64,000 nucleotides of DNA from Verrucomicrobia bacterium LW23 (GTDB taxonomy: Bacteria > Verrucomicrobiota > Verrucomicrobiia > Methylacidiphilales > UBA1321), in contig QAZA01000003.1 of assembly GCA_003054695.1 (NCBI GenBank), positions 1-64,000 on the forward strand, given 5' to 3'. The translations under genes and the position numbers were made by a program. Of the stretch, positions 57-45,610 are shown piece by piece. The notes below the pieces were generated by a model. It was not told the DNA's origin, did no database searches, and saw only the letters and a program-made list of their open reading frames with translations. Position 1 is the first letter of the stretch. Each line of letters opens with the position of its first letter.

Positions 57-2027
57 TCAGTAATAGGTATTTACAATTTCCGGCGATATGTGGGGGAGCT
101 TTTCACTGGAGCCGGGGGCCTTCTCCGGAAATGCCCAGTCGCCCAGGCACCAGCTGCCGGGTTCTTCATGCGTTACTATGCCGCGGTCGTCGGTGTGCGC
201 GGCAAGGTAGCGGGTCCACGCATGCATGCGTTTGTAATTGTGCCTGAGAATGCGCTCATCGCCGTAAAATTGATAATATGTCCATGGCACGATAATGCAC
301 GCGGAACCCCATCCCGGCCCTCCGCCGCCACCGTAGAAAGGCACGGTATGGGGAACGTAGCCAGACGTAGCATGTTGGGCGTCAAATATATCCGCGATCC
401 ACTTGCCGTAAAGGGATCCCACGTCAAGATTCCACATCACGGCCTCTGCGGTGATCTGGGCGTCGCCCGTGTAGCCCAATCTTTCGCGGTGTGGGCAGTC
501 GCTGGGAACGCCTCCGTGCTGATTGACAAGCTGTGTATCGCGGAACAGTGTGACGAGTTTCTCAAGCAGCGGATGGGAGCAAGAGAAGCTGGCTGTTGTT
601 GCCGAATTGACGTAAACGACTCGAGCTTGAACGTTTTGAGACGACGGCTTGCCACTGGTAGCATCAGGCCAGCCCTGAATCTCCGCATAACGAAAGCCGT
701 GCCACGTAAAGCGCGGCTCCCAAACTTCGCCGGCCGTCACGTCGCCGCAAAGCGTGTACTCGTCGCACTGGATATGCTCCCGCCCGGCTGAAAGGAATGC
801 AGGAAGTCCCTGGCTATCAATGTTTTCCGAGAAGCGAAGCGTTACTTTTGTGCCAGCGGCGCCCTTGACAGAAATGCGGAGCCAGCCACTGATGACTCTA
901 CCGAAGTCGAGAACAAAGCGACCTGGCTCAGGTTCGGCTACAGCCACAGGCGCGAGAGTCTCGACTATGGTGTCGGACGGGCAGATCTGGGCGACAACCG
1001 AGGCGGAGGGCTGCGGCGCTTTCTGAGCAACGGGCCACGCCGAGGCGTCGAAACCGGGCGCGTTCCAGTTGTCGGGAAGGCTGAGTCGCGCGTCGTACTG
1101 TTCCCCCGTAAAGACGTTGTTGCTGATGATCGGACCTTCTGTCCATCGCCATGCATCTGATGGCGAGGAGGTTACATAGATAATGCCGCCGGTAAATGTA
1201 AGAGCGAGGAGAAAAAGCAGTCGCGGCGGGCCATAAGACATTTTGCCTTCGATAGTGCGAACGCGTTGCTGGTGCATGCCGTTGCCCAGAATAATACCCA
1301 CGACGTTTTCGCCTCCCCGGAAGCTGTGCACATCGATGGCGTGCACGCGATAGAGCACGCGTTTGCTGCCGGCATCGCTATAGGGGTATAGCATATCGCT
1401 ATACTGCCGATGGTCATAATCGGTCCAGGCAGGGCTTAACTGGTCGTCGCCTATGCGATTTCCGTTTACGTAAAGCTCACCATATCCCAGCCCGCACAGG
1501 CAGGCCCGCGCGTGAACGAGGGAACCCAGATCCGTGGGGACCTGAAACTGGTGGCGAAAATAAGGTGCGGCCTCTCGGTCGCCCGCGGTTATCCATTCTG
1601 CTGCAGCCCAATCAGTTGCGCATAACAGGCCTGTCTCAAACCAGGTGGGCTCGCTCCAGTCCGACGGCACGTCATTTTCGTCCCATACCCGTATGCGCCA
1701 CCATACACGTTGTAGCGCATGGAGAGCAAGAGGGGTAACTTCCTTGGGGCCGCCGGCTTTGCCGTAGAGGACCTGCTGGGCGGAGGACGAGACTTTACCG
1801 CTCGTCCAGCAAGGGTTTGTGGCGCCCGGGTACCAGTGAAGGCGTGCGAAGGCGACGATTTCGAAGGCGGTGGGCGCGGCGCCTCGGTTGCTGGAGGCTA
1901 ACTCCCATGTTAGCAACGGGTTAGGGGACTGGACCCCCATCGGGGTGGTTTCAAACTCGCAGCGGAGCCGGAAGGGGGCACGGAGGGTGCAGGGGCGTGG
2001 CGTTTCTACAGGGGAAGTCGCGTCCAT
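57..2027 (-). pseudogene. GH78 alpha-L-rhamnosidase, C-terminally truncated
   Basis: Glycoside hydrolase family 78 enzymes release terminal alpha-L-rhamnose from plant glycosides and polysaccharides. The 656-residue product, read from an ATG at 2027, has the N-terminal beta-sandwich modules (LLTWEL, ARACLCGLGYGELYVNG) and the start of the (alpha/alpha)6 barrel with the family signature DCPHRERLGYTGD and the following GWGSA segment. Reading stops at a TGA (57-59) right after PEIVNTYY, inside the barrel. The rest of the barrel and the C-terminal sandwich, usually 200 or more residues, are missing. Only 56 bases remain to the window edge, so I cannot tell a frameshift, a nonsense mutation or a sequence-end artefact apart. 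An upstream in-frame start at 2228 would overlap the preceding gene and is unlikely. Family call is firm; broken status is likely. Confidence 0.8.
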
Positions 2028-2112
2028 GGGGAAGAATCGCGAGATCCTAGTGGTGTGCAGCAATGCCGTCGAGACAAATGGTGCTTTGGTGCAAACGGCA
2101 CGGCCCCAGGGC

Positions 2113-3456
2113 TTAACGGCGGGGCTGCGGCGGCGCAATTCTGCCGGCGGTGGTGGCCTCGCGGCGCATAGATTCGAGGCGATCCTCCGCGATACGAAGC
2201 TGGCGCAGGTTGGAGAGCAGCTCCTCAAACCGGGCTGCCGATTCGGGCGTTACGGAGCGGAAGTTTTGCGGCAGGGGGTTGGCCTTTTCGATTTCGTGCC
2301 ATGCTTGCCACACGGCAATGAGCGCCGCGTTGTGGACGCCCGGGCTGAACTCGGTGGCGGCAACGCCGGCCAGGTTATCCATCACAAACTCGGCAAGGAA
2401 CTGGGGAAGGTGCCTGGAGTAGACGCGGCAGCCGAAGCGGAAAAGCTCCTGCGAAAGCGGGCGAAGGCGCGCGTCGCCGAGCGCCTCCCAGTGGCGGGAG
2501 AGGGCCAGGCCTTCGTCGATGGCATTAGTGGTGAGCGCCGCCCACTCGTGCTCGGTGCGGGTTCGGGCGATCGGGTCGGCGTCCAGAACGGCCAGCGCCT
2601 GGCAGAGCAGGTGGCGGAGCTTCATTGTATGTAGCGCAATAGCAATGTCTTCCGTTTCCAGCGAGCGGCCGGATTCCAATGCGTTTTGGCAGACAGCTAA
2701 CGCCTCGCGTGCATAGTCGCAGCGCGTGACGCTGAGCAGGCTGACGGACAGGTTTGCGGCGGCGCCGAGAGAGAGAAGGAGGCGGTCGTCGACAGCAGCG
2801 GCCTCCGGCCTGGACAGGGCGGCCAACGCGGCGCGAAAGGAGTCGGACGCCAAGGCGGAGATCTCGGCGTGGCGCGATGGAAGTGCTTTGGCCTGATCCG
2901 CTTGCGATTGCAGGGCAAAGCCGCGGTTGATGTGAGCAATAGCGACGCGGCGAGGAAAGAGAGGATTCTCGGCCAGGGGAAGATCGTGCAGGAGGGCAAG
3001 AGCTTCGTCGTACGCAAGTAACGCGTTCTCAAGATGTTGCGCGCTACCAAGCCGGGTATGGGCGTCGCCGCGGTTCAGCCAGCCGGCAATCAGGCCGTAG
3101 CGATACCAGGAACTCTCGCCAAGGGGCAGGCCATTGCGCAGCTGGATGGCGATGTCAAAGCAGCGGATAGCCTCGTGCAGGCTTTCGATGCGCTCCGGGG
3201 TCAATGCTTGCCCCTGCGGATGTAAGTCTAACAGTGCAATGCCTTTGCGCGTGATCGCTGAGGCTTCTTCGTGAATCTCGGCCGAGGTCTTGGTGCGAGG
3301 TGCGGCCGCGGATGGTATCGCATTGACGTAGCTGGATGCGAATCGAAGCGAATAGAACTCACCAGAATCCCCGGGCGGGGAGGCCGCCTGATACTGCAAA
3401 CCAGGTGCAACTTCCTTATGCGCAGTATGTTGAGGGGATGCGGGGTCAAAATTCAT
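2113..3456 (-). CDS. Helical-repeat (TPR-like) protein of unknown function
   Basis: A 447-residue protein without a signal peptide or membrane segment. From about residue 60 to 430 it is almost entirely helical, with several degenerate TPR-like motifs (AIRCFDIAIQLRNG, NALLAYDEALALLHDLP, AHINRGFALQSQAD), suggesting an alpha-solenoid protein-binding scaffold. Residues 1-60 look disordered. The ATG at 3456 is the natural start; no Shine-Dalgarno is visible. It lies 117 bases downstream of dnaB and 85 upstream of the GH78 gene on the same strand, so it may share the dnaB transcript. I do not recognise a specific family; 'TPR-like' is a judgement from helix spacing and A/L/Y placement. Coding status is supported by length and uninterrupted frame. 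Confidence 0.65.
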   Translation of the reverse strand: MNFDPASPQHTAHKEVAPGLQYQAASPPGDSGEFYSLRFASSYVNAIPSAAAPRTKTSAEIHEEASAITRKGIALLDLHPQGQALTPERIESLHEAIRCFDIAIQLRNGLPLGESSWYRYGLIAGWLNRGDAHTRLGSAQHLENALLAYDEALALLHDLPLAENPLFPRRVAIAHINRGFALQSQADQAKALPSRHAEISALASDSFRAALAALSRPEAAAVDDRLLLSLGAAANLSVSLLSVTRCDYAREALAVCQNALESGRSLETEDIAIALHTMKLRHLLCQALAVLDADPIARTRTEHEWAALTTNAIDEGLALSRHWEALGDARLRPLSQELFRFGCRVYSRHLPQFLAEFVMDNLAGVAATEFSPGVHNAALIAVWQAWHEIEKANPLPQNFRSVTPESAARFEELLSNLRQLRIAEDRLESMRREATTAGRIAPPQPRR

Positions 3457-6706: not shown

Positions 6707-6772
6707 GGGACATATCGTGTCCCAGGGACACGCTGTGTCCCTGCCATGTTGGGTAGGGACATACAATGTCCC
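6707..6772. repeat. Three tandem GGGACA-N5-TGTCCC type palindromes
   Basis: Three 17-bp dyads lie in a row: GGGACATATCGTGTCCC (6707-6723), GGGACACGCTGTGTCCC (6725-6741) and GGGACATACAATGTCCC (6756-6772). Each has six-base or longer arms around a short centre, so the array can also form alternative hairpins. The same unit occurs at 58393-58440. Here it follows the aldolase stop by 12 bases and could act in termination, mRNA protection or protein binding. There is no U-tract typical of a simple intrinsic terminator. Confidence 0.75.
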
Positions 6773-6790
6773 ACCCATGCCCGGGCGCTG

Positions 6791-7384
6791 ATGTACTTGC
6801 CTCATCTTGAAGCTACGTGTAGTATCCAAGCCATCGAAACGCCCAAGCTCAAGCCCTGGCAGCCCCGGCCGCGCCTCAGCGATACCATGTTGCTGACGCG
6901 TTCACGCTCGCTGTTCTCCGAGTTTGACCGCCGCGCGCGGAGGCTTTATCCTCTGGACGTGTCAACAAAAGTCAGGCGCAACGTCACACTCAGCCTGGAG
7001 GTCATCGAAGCTGCCAAACAGCGCGGGATGCATCTGGGAGACTATATTCTTAATCTCCATCACAACCAGCGCTCCGCACGCGTTGCGTTTGTTGCCAGCA
7101 TTTATCGCTCCTTCGCTCTGCTGGAGATGGCCCGAATTCCTGTCGACCCCGCCTACTACGAGCTGGTGGACGGCGCGCTTGGCGGCGACGATGCGCACAG
7201 GTTTCGCGTGATTGCCTCCAGCGGCGTGGACAGCGCTTTGGTTAAGGCCTCCGCGCGCCTGCTGGGTGCGGATACTCGCTCAGGCGCGGTGGAGGCGCTG
7301 CTGCTGGCGAGCAAACGGGCCCAGGTATTGCACGAAGGTTTTCTGGAGGCAGCGCGGCTGTTAGAGGCAACTTATTATCGCTAA
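6791..7384 (+). CDS. Hypothetical helical protein
   Basis: A 197-residue protein (from ATG 6791) that I do not recognise. It is basic in its first third (RPRLSDTMLLTRSRSLFSEFDRRARRLYP) and helical afterwards, with Ala/Leu-rich segments (ASARLLGADTRSGAVEALLLASKRAQVLHEG) and no signal peptide, membrane helix or metal-binding motif. A second possible start is ATG 6887, just ahead of LLTRSRSLF. The earlier start at 6746 would run through the palindromic repeats and is less likely. It stands alone between the aldolase gene and the uronate-isomerase homologue, on the same strand. Real coding status is supported by codon pattern and balanced composition but not by homology I can name. Confidence 0.55.
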   Translation: MYLPHLEATCSIQAIETPKLKPWQPRPRLSDTMLLTRSRSLFSEFDRRARRLYPLDVSTKVRRNVTLSLEVIEAAKQRGMHLGDYILNLHHNQRSARVAFVASIYRSFALLEMARIPVDPAYYELVDGALGGDDAHRFRVIASSGVDSALVKASARLLGADTRSGAVEALLLASKRAQVLHEGFLEAARLLEATYYR

Positions 7385-7634
7385 ACACGGAAATTCATAC
7401 GTAAGCTGTTGCAAAATTTGACGACTGCATAGCAAAGCGCGCGGATTCCTGTTTACTTTTCGTCATCCTTTACTTATTCTACAAGGCGTTGCCAATGCCC
7501 TTGCCAACGCAGGTCAGGACGCCGCGGCAGCACCAAGCCGTACCCCGCAGCTCCCGCAGGAAGTACCCATCCCCTTCTGCCCCTTGTATTTATCCACGAA
7601 GTCAGCGCCATTGCTACCCGTTTGGAAAAGGGAC

Positions 7635-9095
7635 ATGAACTCCTTCCACACCCCCCACTTTCTCCTGACGACGGAGGCCGCCCGGGAGCTGTACCACAAC
7701 CACGCGGCGCCGTCGCCCATTTTTGATTTCCGCTGCCATCTGCCGACGGCGCAAATCGCTGCGAATAAACGCTTTCGCAACTTGTACGAGCTGTGGATCG
7801 AGCACGATACGTGCAAGCACCGCGCCATGCGCGCCAACGGCATTCCCGAGCAGTTTGTAACGGGGGAGGCGAGCGATTTCGAGAAGTTCCTGGCCTTTGC
7901 GACCACGATGCCCTACACGATGCGGCATCCCCTCTATCACTGCACGCACCTGGAGCTCTACCGCTTCTTTGGCATCACACGTGTGCTGGATGAGCACTCG
8001 GCCCGCGCCGTATGGGACGCCGCCAATGAGCAACTCTCTTCGCCCGAGATGTTTACGCACGGGCTGCTGGAGCGCGAGAACGTGGTGGCGCTGTGCACGA
8101 TGGAGGACCCCATCGACACGCTGCTGCACCACCAGACGGTGCGCGAGACGGACCTGGGCACACAGGTATACCCCGCCTTCGCCCCGCGCATGCTGCGTTA
8201 TGTGGCAGAGGCCCAACGCTTTACGCCGTGGCTGGAAAGCCTGGAAAGCGTGAGCGGCGAGGACTGCTCGTCGCTTGTTGGGTTTCTGACTGCGCTGGAG
8301 CAGAGGCACGATTGCTTTCACCAGCTCGGCGGGCGCCTTTCCTGCTACCGGCTCAATATGCTGGACCGCACCATCCCGCCCTGCCCGGAGGGCCGAGCCG
8401 CGGCCATTTATGAGAAGGCCCGCGCCGGCGCCACCGTCACCCCGGCTGAGGCCGACCAGCTGAGCATGCACATCATGCTGGTGCTTGCGCGCCTGGACTC
8501 CGACCGCGGCTGGACGACGCAGCTGCAGCTGGAGGCCTGCGACGACCGCGCCACCGAGACGCCGGAGGGCCTCATCGCGTTCCTCAGCGCTTTGGAGAGC
8601 ACGGAGCAGATGCCGCGCGTGCTGTACAGCGCCGCCCGCATGGGCGACAGCGAGCTGTTTGCCTCGGTTATCGCCTCCTTCTTGCAGCGCAGCACCGACG
8701 CCGCCGGCCCGCATCCCATGCATCTGGGCGCGGCGTGGGATTACCTGGAGCGCGCGGGCGTGGAAAGCCAGCTTAACCTCTTCTCGCGCATCAGTTTACT
8801 GCGACGGTTCATCGGCGTGGCGTCAGATGCAAGCGTGTTCCTCTCCTTTAGTCGTCACGAGTTCTTTCGACGGCACTTGTGCAACATGCTGGGGCAGGAT
8901 ATGGAGAACGGCACGATGCCGGGGGATATGGAGCTGGTGGGCAAAATGGTGCGCGAGATTTGCTTTGAGAACACGCATCAATACCTGGGGATGGAGGTCG
9001 GCAACCTCGGTTTCCCCAAACGGCATGGCGGTCGCGACCCTGTGGATCTGGTTGATGAAGCGACACTTGCAGCGATGCGGCAGTCGCGGGAGTGA
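7635..9095 (+). CDS. Uronate isomerase (UxaC) homologue with altered active-site motifs
   Basis: Amidohydrolase-superfamily protein of 486 residues that aligns end to end with uronate isomerase, the enzyme converting glucuronate and galacturonate to fructuronate and tagaturonate. Shared blocks include the N-terminus (HFLLTTEAARELYH), NPLYH-like HPLYHCTHLELYR, DPIDTLLHH, FLSFSRHEFFRR and the C-terminal NLGFPK. Several functional positions differ from the UxaC I know: DYHCHLP is DFRCHLP here (first metal His is Arg33), QYHIGA is QLQLEA (His to Gln), the Arg of SWRPDK is absent (PAFAPRM), and TDSRSF is SDASVF (Asp kept, Arg lost). It may therefore have a changed or lost activity. The start at ATG 7635 follows a GGAAAAGGG stretch and matches the family N-terminus. 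It is about 36 kb from uxuA, not in its operon. Confidence 0.85.
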   Translation: MNSFHTPHFLLTTEAARELYHNHAAPSPIFDFRCHLPTAQIAANKRFRNLYELWIEHDTCKHRAMRANGIPEQFVTGEASDFEKFLAFATTMPYTMRHPLYHCTHLELYRFFGITRVLDEHSARAVWDAANEQLSSPEMFTHGLLERENVVALCTMEDPIDTLLHHQTVRETDLGTQVYPAFAPRMLRYVAEAQRFTPWLESLESVSGEDCSSLVGFLTALEQRHDCFHQLGGRLSCYRLNMLDRTIPPCPEGRAAAIYEKARAGATVTPAEADQLSMHIMLVLARLDSDRGWTTQLQLEACDDRATETPEGLIAFLSALESTEQMPRVLYSAARMGDSELFASVIASFLQRSTDAAGPHPMHLGAAWDYLERAGVESQLNLFSRISLLRRFIGVASDASVFLSFSRHEFFRRHLCNMLGQDMENGTMPGDMELVGKMVREICFENTHQYLGMEVGNLGFPKRHGGRDPVDLVDEATLAAMRQSRE

Positions 9096-9216: not shown

Positions 9217-10383
9217 ATGTCCACAGCCACCTCTTCCGCCCTCGCCGCCGCCCCTTCCTCTCCCGCCGAAATCAGTCCCGAAGCGCTGCGCGCCGCGGGT
9301 GAGCTTATCATTATGGGCGTGCCGGGGCCGGAGCTGGACGAAGCGACGCGCGCGGCCATTGCGCAGGTGCAGCCGGGCGGCTTTATTCTTTTTGGCCGCA
9401 ACATTAAGCAGCCCAGGCAGTTACGCAAGCTGGTGGACGAGCTGCGGGCGGCCGTGGGGCACGAGCCGGTGATCACGATTGACCAGGAAGGGGGCCGCGT
9501 ATCGCGCCTGCGGGAGATGGGCGCCGAGCCGCCGAGTGCCAAGCAGCTGCGCGACAGGGGCGACCTGGAGCTGATCCACCGCCACGGTGAGCTTGTGGGT
9601 AAGCAGTTGCGGCTGTACGGGTTCAATCTGAATCTCGCCCCGGTTCTCGATGTCTCCTTTGACGACGCGGCGGACAACTCGCTCAAAAACCGCACGTGGG
9701 GGCTTAACGATCCCGCGCAGGTGGTGCGCAACGCGGGGGCTTTTACGCGGGCCATGCGCGCGGAGGGCATCCTGAGCTGCGGCAAGCATTTTCCCGGCTA
9801 CTCGGGGGCGGGGATTGATCCGCACCACGAGCTGCCGGTGCTGGATCGCACGCGCGCGCAACTGGAGGCGGCGGAGTGGGTGGCGTTTCGCGAGTTGCTG
9901 CCCGAGATGGACGCGCTGATGATCGGCCACGCGCTCTACCCGGACCTGGACGACAGCGGCGAGCCTTCCTCGCTCAGCGCCAGGATGATCGACGGGATTT
10001 TACGCAAGGACTGGCGCTTTGACGGCATCGTGATAAGCGACGACCTGGACATGGGCGCCATCATCAACCACTGCTCCTTCGAGGAAAGCATGCGCCGCGC
10101 TGTGGTTGCGGGCAACGATTTGCTGCTGCTGTGCCACCGCGTGCACATGGTGGTGGAGGCCGCACGGGCCATCGCCACGCTGCCGGCGGAGGTGCTGGCG
10201 CCATCGTTGCGCCGCGTTCGCGCCCTGCGCGCGCGCCTGGCTCCGCCGGCGGAGTTTACCGACGAGGCGGTGCGCTCGCTGGACGCCCAGGTGGCCGCGC
10301 TGCGTGTCGCCACGCTTGGCGACGAAGCGGCGGCAACCCGCAGTGCTGAGGACGGCAAGCGCTCGCCGGTGGAGCTCTATTAG
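9217..10383 (+). CDS. nagZ: Beta-N-acetylhexosaminidase, GH3 (NagZ-like)
   Basis: GH3 hydrolase that removes N-acetylglucosamine from muropeptides in peptidoglycan recycling, or from chitin fragments. The 388-residue single-domain TIM barrel has the NagZ hallmarks: FILFGRN, TIDQEGGRVSRL, the Asp-His dyad loop after KHFPGYSGAG (DPHHELP), and nucleophile Asp in VISDDLDMGAI. No signal peptide is seen, which agrees with a cytoplasmic recycling enzyme. The ATG at 9217 is used; it has no Shine-Dalgarno. The loop reads PGYSGAG where many NagZ have PGHG, but the D-x-H pair is intact. It ends 37 bases from the convergent metallophosphoesterase gene. Confidence 0.9.
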   Translation: MSTATSSALAAAPSSPAEISPEALRAAGELIIMGVPGPELDEATRAAIAQVQPGGFILFGRNIKQPRQLRKLVDELRAAVGHEPVITIDQEGGRVSRLREMGAEPPSAKQLRDRGDLELIHRHGELVGKQLRLYGFNLNLAPVLDVSFDDAADNSLKNRTWGLNDPAQVVRNAGAFTRAMRAEGILSCGKHFPGYSGAGIDPHHELPVLDRTRAQLEAAEWVAFRELLPEMDALMIGHALYPDLDDSGEPSSLSARMIDGILRKDWRFDGIVISDDLDMGAIINHCSFEESMRRAVVAGNDLLLLCHRVHMVVEAARAIATLPAEVLAPSLRRVRALRARLAPPAEFTDEAVRSLDAQVAALRVATLGDEAAATRSAEDGKRSPVELY

Positions 10384-44389: not shown

Positions 44390-45610
44390 ATGCACGCTCC
44401 CAGTCCTTCGCTTTACATGGAGGAATCGTTCCGCTGGTTTGGCCCGCAGGACGAAGTTCCCCTCTCATTCATCCGCCAGGCCGGCGCTACGGCCGTCTTT
44501 ACGTCGCTCCACCAGATTCCCTACGGCGAGGCGTGGCCTCGCGAGGCTATTGTCGAGCGAAAGGAGATTCTGGCCGCGGCCGGTTTACGCTGGACGGCTG
44601 TGGAATCCGTTCCGGTGCACGAGGATATAAAAACCGGGCGCGGCGATCTGAAGCGCCTTTTTGATAACTACCGCACCTGCCTGCGCAACCTGGCGGCGGA
44701 GGGCATCTTCACCGTCATCTACAATTTCATGCCCGTGCTGGATTGGGTGCGCACCGATACGCGGCACGTGCTGCCCGACGGTTCCGAGTGCTTACTCTTT
44801 GATCCCGTGCACTTTGCGGCGTTTGAGATCCACGCCCTCAACCGCAAGGGCGCCGAGGCGGACTACACGCCGCAGCAGCTGGAGCTTGCCGCCAGATGGT
44901 GGGAGAGCATGGACGCCGCCGCTAAGGAGGAGTACATCCAGAGCATTATCGACGTGTTCCCCGGCACCAAGCTGGGCCTCGGGCTGGACGACATCCGCGC
45001 GATGCTGGCCAAATACGACGGCCTGGGCGACGAAGGCCTCCGCGCCAATTACGACCGCTTTTTGCAGGAGGTCGTGCCAACCGCGGACGAAGTCGGCGTA
45101 CGCCTGGCCGTGCATCCCGATGATCCGCCCTACTCGCTGCTGGGCCTGCCGCGCATTGTCTCCCAGGCTTCGGATGTCGAGCGGCTGTTGAAGGCCGTGG
45201 ATACGCGCGCCAACGGATTATGTTTCTGCACAGGCAGTTACAGCGCGCGGCCGAGCAATGATTTACCCGCGATGGTCAAGCGCTTTGCCGATCGCATCCA
45301 CGCCGTGCACCTGCGCAGCACACAGCGCCTGCCGGACGGCTCCTTTTACGAGGCCAATCACCTGGAGGGCAGCGTGGATATGCCCCGCGTGATGCGTGCC
45401 CTGCTGGACGAACAGGATCGCCGCGCCGCCGAAGGACGCGAGGATTGCCAGCTGCCCTTCCGCCCCGACCACGGCCATACCATGATGGACGATCTGGCCA
45501 AACCGCCCGGCACCCCCGGCTACAGCTGCATTGGCCGCATGCGCGGCCTCTCGGAGCTGCGCGGCGTGATGCGCGGCCTGCGCTTTGCAGAGCAGGCGGC
45601 AAAGGGATAG
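44390..45610 (+). CDS. uxuA: Mannonate dehydratase
   Basis: Dehydrates D-mannonate to 2-keto-3-deoxygluconate in the glucuronate pathway. The 406-residue protein aligns along its length with UxuA: MEESFRWFGPQDEVPL, ESVPVHEDIKTG, YNFMPVLDWVRTD, and intact metal-binding segments AVHPDDPP, CTGSY, HLRSTQR and RPDHGH. All catalytic positions expected for the family are present, unlike the divergent isomerase homologue at 7.6 kb. It is second in a two-gene operon with the SDR. The ATG at 44390 follows a C/T tract. Confidence 0.96.
   Translation: MHAPSPSLYMEESFRWFGPQDEVPLSFIRQAGATAVFTSLHQIPYGEAWPREAIVERKEILAAAGLRWTAVESVPVHEDIKTGRGDLKRLFDNYRTCLRNLAAEGIFTVIYNFMPVLDWVRTDTRHVLPDGSECLLFDPVHFAAFEIHALNRKGAEADYTPQQLELAARWWESMDAAAKEEYIQSIIDVFPGTKLGLGLDDIRAMLAKYDGLGDEGLRANYDRFLQEVVPTADEVGVRLAVHPDDPPYSLLGLPRIVSQASDVERLLKAVDTRANGLCFCTGSYSARPSNDLPAMVKRFADRIHAVHLRSTQRLPDGSFYEANHLEGSVDMPRVMRALLDEQDRRAAEGREDCQLPFRPDHGHTMMDDLAKPPGTPGYSCIGRMRGLSELRGVMRGLRFAEQAAKG

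Follow-up and report, generated by a model that had tools for sequence, protein, structure and literature searches.

A uronate isomerase homologue and its surroundings

The window analyzed here is a stretch of 64,000 nucleotides from Verrucomicrobia bacterium LW23. Near its start, an uninterrupted open reading frame encodes a protein, P0001, that resembles the uronate isomerase UxaC (Table 1). The ATG at 7635 is taken as its start rather than an in-frame TTG at 7584, because the ATG aligns with the starts of related genes. The next gene on the same strand is nagZ-like, 62-64% identical across the family, and uxuA lies further along the window. On the other side is an orphan reading frame with no match in Pfam or NCBIfam; all 11 other genomes of the family have it, with identities of 62-71%, as do two further genomes from the order. 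An alpha-L-rhamnosidase reading frame at the start of the contig breaks off within the 6-hairpin domain, at profile position 164 of 339, and is either a broken gene or one cut by the assembly edge. No RNA elements and no promoter were found near the P0001 gene.

Table 1. Positions in the window of the P0001 gene, its altered motifs and nearby genes
Feature	Positions	Strand	Comment
alpha-L-rhamnosidase open reading frame	57-2228	-	ends inside 6-hairpin domain
orphan open reading frame	6746-7384	+	no Pfam or NCBIfam match
uxaC-like gene, dismantled active site	7635-9095	+	486 aa, P0001; Pfam PF02614, NCBIfam NF002794, AF2 model
DFRCHLP, residues 31-37	7725-7745	+	metal ligand His33 to Arg; His35 kept
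HDTCKH replacing GDHYKW, residues 57-62	7803-7820	+	Gly57, His59, Tyr60, Trp62 lost
AFAPRM replacing S/T-W/F-R-P-D-K, residues 181-186	8175-8192	+	Arg185, Asp187 (E. coli numbering) lost
SCY replacing SDH, residues 236-238	8340-8348	+	Asp238 lost
QLQLEACDDRATET, residues 296-309	8520-8561	+	His297, Arg302 lost; 313-323 segment deleted at end
SDASVF replacing TDSRSF, residues 397-402	8823-8840	+	Arg414 lost, Asp412 kept
nagZ-like gene	9217-10383	+	62-64% identical across family
uxuA	44390-45610		

The P0001 gene has the reading frame, codon usage and GC3 of a maintained gene. Its GC3 is 0.82, as compared with 0.53 in the flanking spacers, and its codon usage is that of other genes in the window. 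When a uxaC gene of the family was allowed to drift neutrally in simulation, the frame stayed open in none of 150 trials at 60% identity or less, and at 45% identity a mean of about 9 stops had accumulated; the P0001 frame has none. A sequencing error at a single residue is ruled out by the presence of at least 11 active-site changes together with an in-frame deletion and normal codon use.

P0001 belongs to the UxaC family as a homologue, matching Pfam UxaC (PF02614) with an E-value of 7.9e-119 and 397.9 bits (gathering score 25). It falls short of the NCBIfam equivalog for the enzyme (NF002794, EC 5.3.1.12), scoring 355.5 bits against a cut-off of 387, while relatives score about 600 (603 for the host's canonical copy, 610 for one relative in the family). 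It also fails at the residues on which that assignment turns: with H33R and H297Q, only H35 and D412 remain of the H-x-H pair, His297 and Asp412, and the acid-base and substrate set of H59, Y60, R185, R302, W382 and R414 reads T, C, A, D, D and S.

The three closest solved structures by sequence, 3iac, 1j5s and 2q01, are all uronate isomerases. An AlphaFold2 model (pLDDT 87, pTM 0.86) was built from 57 related sequences, among them canonical relatives that favor the canonical fold. Confidence is low at 304-307 (the shortened segment, pLDDT below 50), at about 351-370 (the region of strand 7) and after 460. Both Foldseek and VIA-align rank UxaC structures first for the model. Superposition on a solved UxaC, a check called for by the original prediction, gave a TM score of 0.86 and a Z score of 45.0 over 446 residues at 1.9 A with the Salmonella enzyme (3iac; 34% identity), and Z 42.7 with T. 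maritima TM0064 (1j5s; 29%), identities being those of the structural alignments. P0001 is thus confidently predicted to take the uronate isomerase fold, as a full-length, colinear homologue of these enzymes and that of E. coli. The amidohydrolase barrel is shared more remotely with Bh0493 of B. halodurans (2pnk, 3hka; Z 26, 11-12% identity), a divergent isomerase that is active with bound Zn, whereas in P0001 only one His of the H-x-H pair is left.

The active site of P0001

P0001 has exchanged nearly all the catalytic residues of UxaC. The comparison drew on 129 other UxaC proteins: whole-genome searches supplied 48 of the loci, genome_contigs another 80, and E. coli K-12 (NC_000913.3) the protein whose numbering is used below. 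H33, H35, G57, D58, H59, Y60, K61, W62, R185, D187, D238, H297, R302, W381, W382, D385, D412 and R414 are invariant in 129 of 129, a count in which the 80 genome_contigs loci lean canonical at 57-60 because one of the peptide patterns used to find them contains GDHY, and in which the 48 genome-search loci, free of that bias, are the best matches to P0001. P0001 has H33R, H59T, Y60C, W62H, R185A, D187R, D238C, H297Q, R302D, N352R, W382D and R414S, along with His for Gly57, Cys for W103 and a gap at D385. It has also lost the conserved segment containing 313-323 (RNNN...LGPDTGFDSIGD). What remains is H35, D58, K61, W381 and D412. This set of substitutions is found in none of the 129.

Both the alignment and the model bear out the view that a UxaC scaffold has been kept with its metal and substrate sites substituted. 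The changes on which that view was first based, DFRCHLP (31-37), QLQLEA (296-301), the lost motif of SWRPDK type and TDSRSF turned to SDASVF, are all present, and to them are now added losses in GDHYKW, SDH, TTDDP (now TMEDP), YNLNP (YSAARM) and GSGWWFLDQ (GAAWDYL-E) and the deletion already described. It had been allowed that ligands might be supplied from shifted positions. This rescue is ruled out: the alignment is colinear, and the only His near the lost H33 and H297 is the retained H35.

In the uronate isomerases of E. coli and B. halodurans, the strand-1 His pair and the strand-8 Asp are metal ligands, Tyr60 and the Asp transfer protons, and the arginines hold the carboxylate and hydroxyls of the substrate. 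The roles of these residues are said to come from work by Williams et al. in 2006 and Nguyen et al. in 2009, the former reportedly having found that metal is not strictly required by E. coli UxaC, which tolerates its loss. For this reason what argues against isomerase activity is that these residues are lost together, and loss at the metal site would by itself be no proof of inactivity.

The losses are concentrated at the mouth of the barrel. Near-invariant positions have been lost at 29 of 45 places within the barrel-mouth motifs and at 9 of 58 elsewhere (Fisher p 4e-7, an indicative value, since the motif windows were set after the alignment had been viewed); chance does not account for this pattern, as far as such a post hoc value indicates. 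In a leave-one-out count over the first set, P0001 retained 77 of 129 conserved columns, the others at least 122 of about 130.

Even divergent UxaC proteins scoring 420-474 bits still keep H33, H35, Y60, R185, H297, R302, D412 and R414, and the sub-threshold hits that were checked in the rest of the class proved to be fragments, split frames, far homologues, or proteins with the core active site intact. L163 in G079 and L164 in G103, whose open frames are 476 and 431 codons long, carry H59P, W62H, D159R and D319A, the rest of the core being intact, and are a second, milder divergent form of UxaC. Position 34 is Asn in 20 of the 129 relatives; in L009, L010, L011 and L055, DYHCHL is replaced by DYHNHL or DFHNHL. 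At L159 and L179 in G020 and at L158 in G192, uxaC runs across two frames, from either gene breakage or sequencing errors.

Relatives, ancestry and the canonical copy

As anticipated, a canonical uxaC exists elsewhere in the genome, on another contig (G000:C23:45529-46929); it scores 603 bits, above the equivalog cut-off, and has all the residues in question. P0001 is 36% identical to it. Long-chain mannitol/fructuronate dehydrogenase (PF08125) was not found in the host genome, which is 95% complete, despite the presence of uxaC and uxuA; the fructuronate reductase step may be carried out otherwise (by another type of enzyme?), be missing, or be encoded in the unsequenced part.

The original prediction imagined a family of proteins sharing the pattern of P0001. 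No second protein with its substitutions turned up in the family, order, class or phylum samples, in viral contigs or in genome_contigs. Nor was any sequence more than 48% identical to P0001 found among the 12 genomes sampled from the family, 62 from the order, 384 from the class and 387 from the phylum, nor any relative in viral contigs. Six peptides specific to P0001 brought out no relative from 84,980 species genomes, a search from which the host's own records were possibly excluded. The nearest relatives are ordinary UxaC proteins from the same family and class, and to those of the family P0001 is at most 47% identical.

The branch leading to P0001 is 1.8 changes per site in length, the median being 0.12. 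A recent duplication of the canonical copy (L002) is rejected as its origin, since the two are not sisters (AU p 0.002); with p values of 0.175 to 0.54, the data are compatible with P0001 grouping among the family, class or wider clades. P0001 is apparently a diverged copy confined to a single lineage. It is possible that it descends from the lineage's old uxaC, released once another copy took over. The neighborhood offers no help: none of the three nagZ loci checked in relatives has a UxaC-like gene beside it, and no conserved neighborhood, evident partner gene, operon or synteny pointed to a role for P0001.

What P0001 might do

I propose that P0001 is a folded pseudoenzyme, most likely acting without catalysis, a reading that seems to me somewhat better than an even bet. 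It would be a diverged copy of uronate isomerase that has kept the amidohydrolase barrel and lost the machinery of isomerization: a strand-1 metal His, the His and Tyr of the acid-base loop, the arginines that would hold sugar and carboxylate, and an entire stretch of the active site. What it still shares with the enzyme is H35, D412 and many residues of the scaffold, and the canonical copy, on contig C23, would carry out the isomerization of uronates in the host. I infer that isomerase activity has been lost and that the gene has been retained by selection. As to the role itself, one can only guess that the former pocket of P0001 binds some small molecule, or that the protein assembles with a partner. 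The combination of a kept scaffold and a lost active site is more in keeping with a change of function than with decay. Against the proposal count the failure to find an orthologue by which to gauge purifying selection and the lack of a conserved neighborhood or evident partner gene; moreover, with H35, D58, W381 and D412 retained, some chemistry may still be possible.

If there is chemistry, the pocket may have been rebuilt for the binding and conversion of another substrate. In P0001's own numbering, the rebuilt residues would be R33, T59, C60, H62, C103, R185, C237, Q298, E300, D303, R335 and D369, and H35 and D398 would be carried over from the old center. This is a tentative idea, a good deal less probable. 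It draws strength from the replacements, which are often chemically specific (R302D, D187R, N352R, D238C, Y60C, W103C) and not simply exchanges for small residues, and from the conserved scaffold with its His and strand-8 Asp, but no orthologues were found in which the new residues are conserved, the predicted structure is of low confidence at about 304-307 and in the region of strand 7, and no operon context points to a substrate. More specifically, Y60, W103 and D238 have all become Cys beside the retained C34 and H35, making up a putative Cys/His site. That a new catalytic or metal-binding center has been built there is doubtful; its chemistry could be unlike that of known amidohydrolases.

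Perhaps the gene is simply a redundant copy in slow decay, its active site eroded first under relaxed selection and its frame not yet broken. The canonical copy in the host, the very long branch, and the confinement of P0001 to one genome with no synteny would all fit. It is hard to see, however, how so diverged a gene would have escaped the stops expected of neutral drift, kept 49 of 58 near-invariant scaffold positions, and held to the GC3 and codon use of a maintained gene, and I consider decay unlikely. Least likely by far is that P0001 is still a uronate isomerase with an altered, metal-free center. The fold is retained, and the reported tolerance of metal loss would permit such a center, but it is too much to expect of a protein in which Tyr60, R185, R302 and R414 are lost together, a combination seen in none of the 129 relatives.

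A model for how a pseudoenzyme of this kind might earn its keep is the prozyme of T. brucei, a catalytically dead paralogue that regulates a live AdoMetDC (PMC5201418). P0001 might tune a live enzyme in the same way. As there, a dead-looking copy and a canonical one occur in a single genome. The two cases differ in that the folds are unrelated, and P0001 and the canonical copy, at 36% identity, are not sisters in the tree.

One sequence does not make the new branch of amidohydrolases once envisaged. P0001 does carry a warning for annotation, as a general Pfam match would name it a glucuronate isomerase. UxaC active sites are strictly conserved, the core catalytic set being kept in every relative examined, and the literature searched yielded no report of a UxaC pseudoenzyme. 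If it is maintained and folds, P0001 would be, as far as that literature shows, the first proposed in the family. Together with a live copy in the same cell, it would offer a defined case in which to ask why the dead scaffold of a sugar isomerase is kept.
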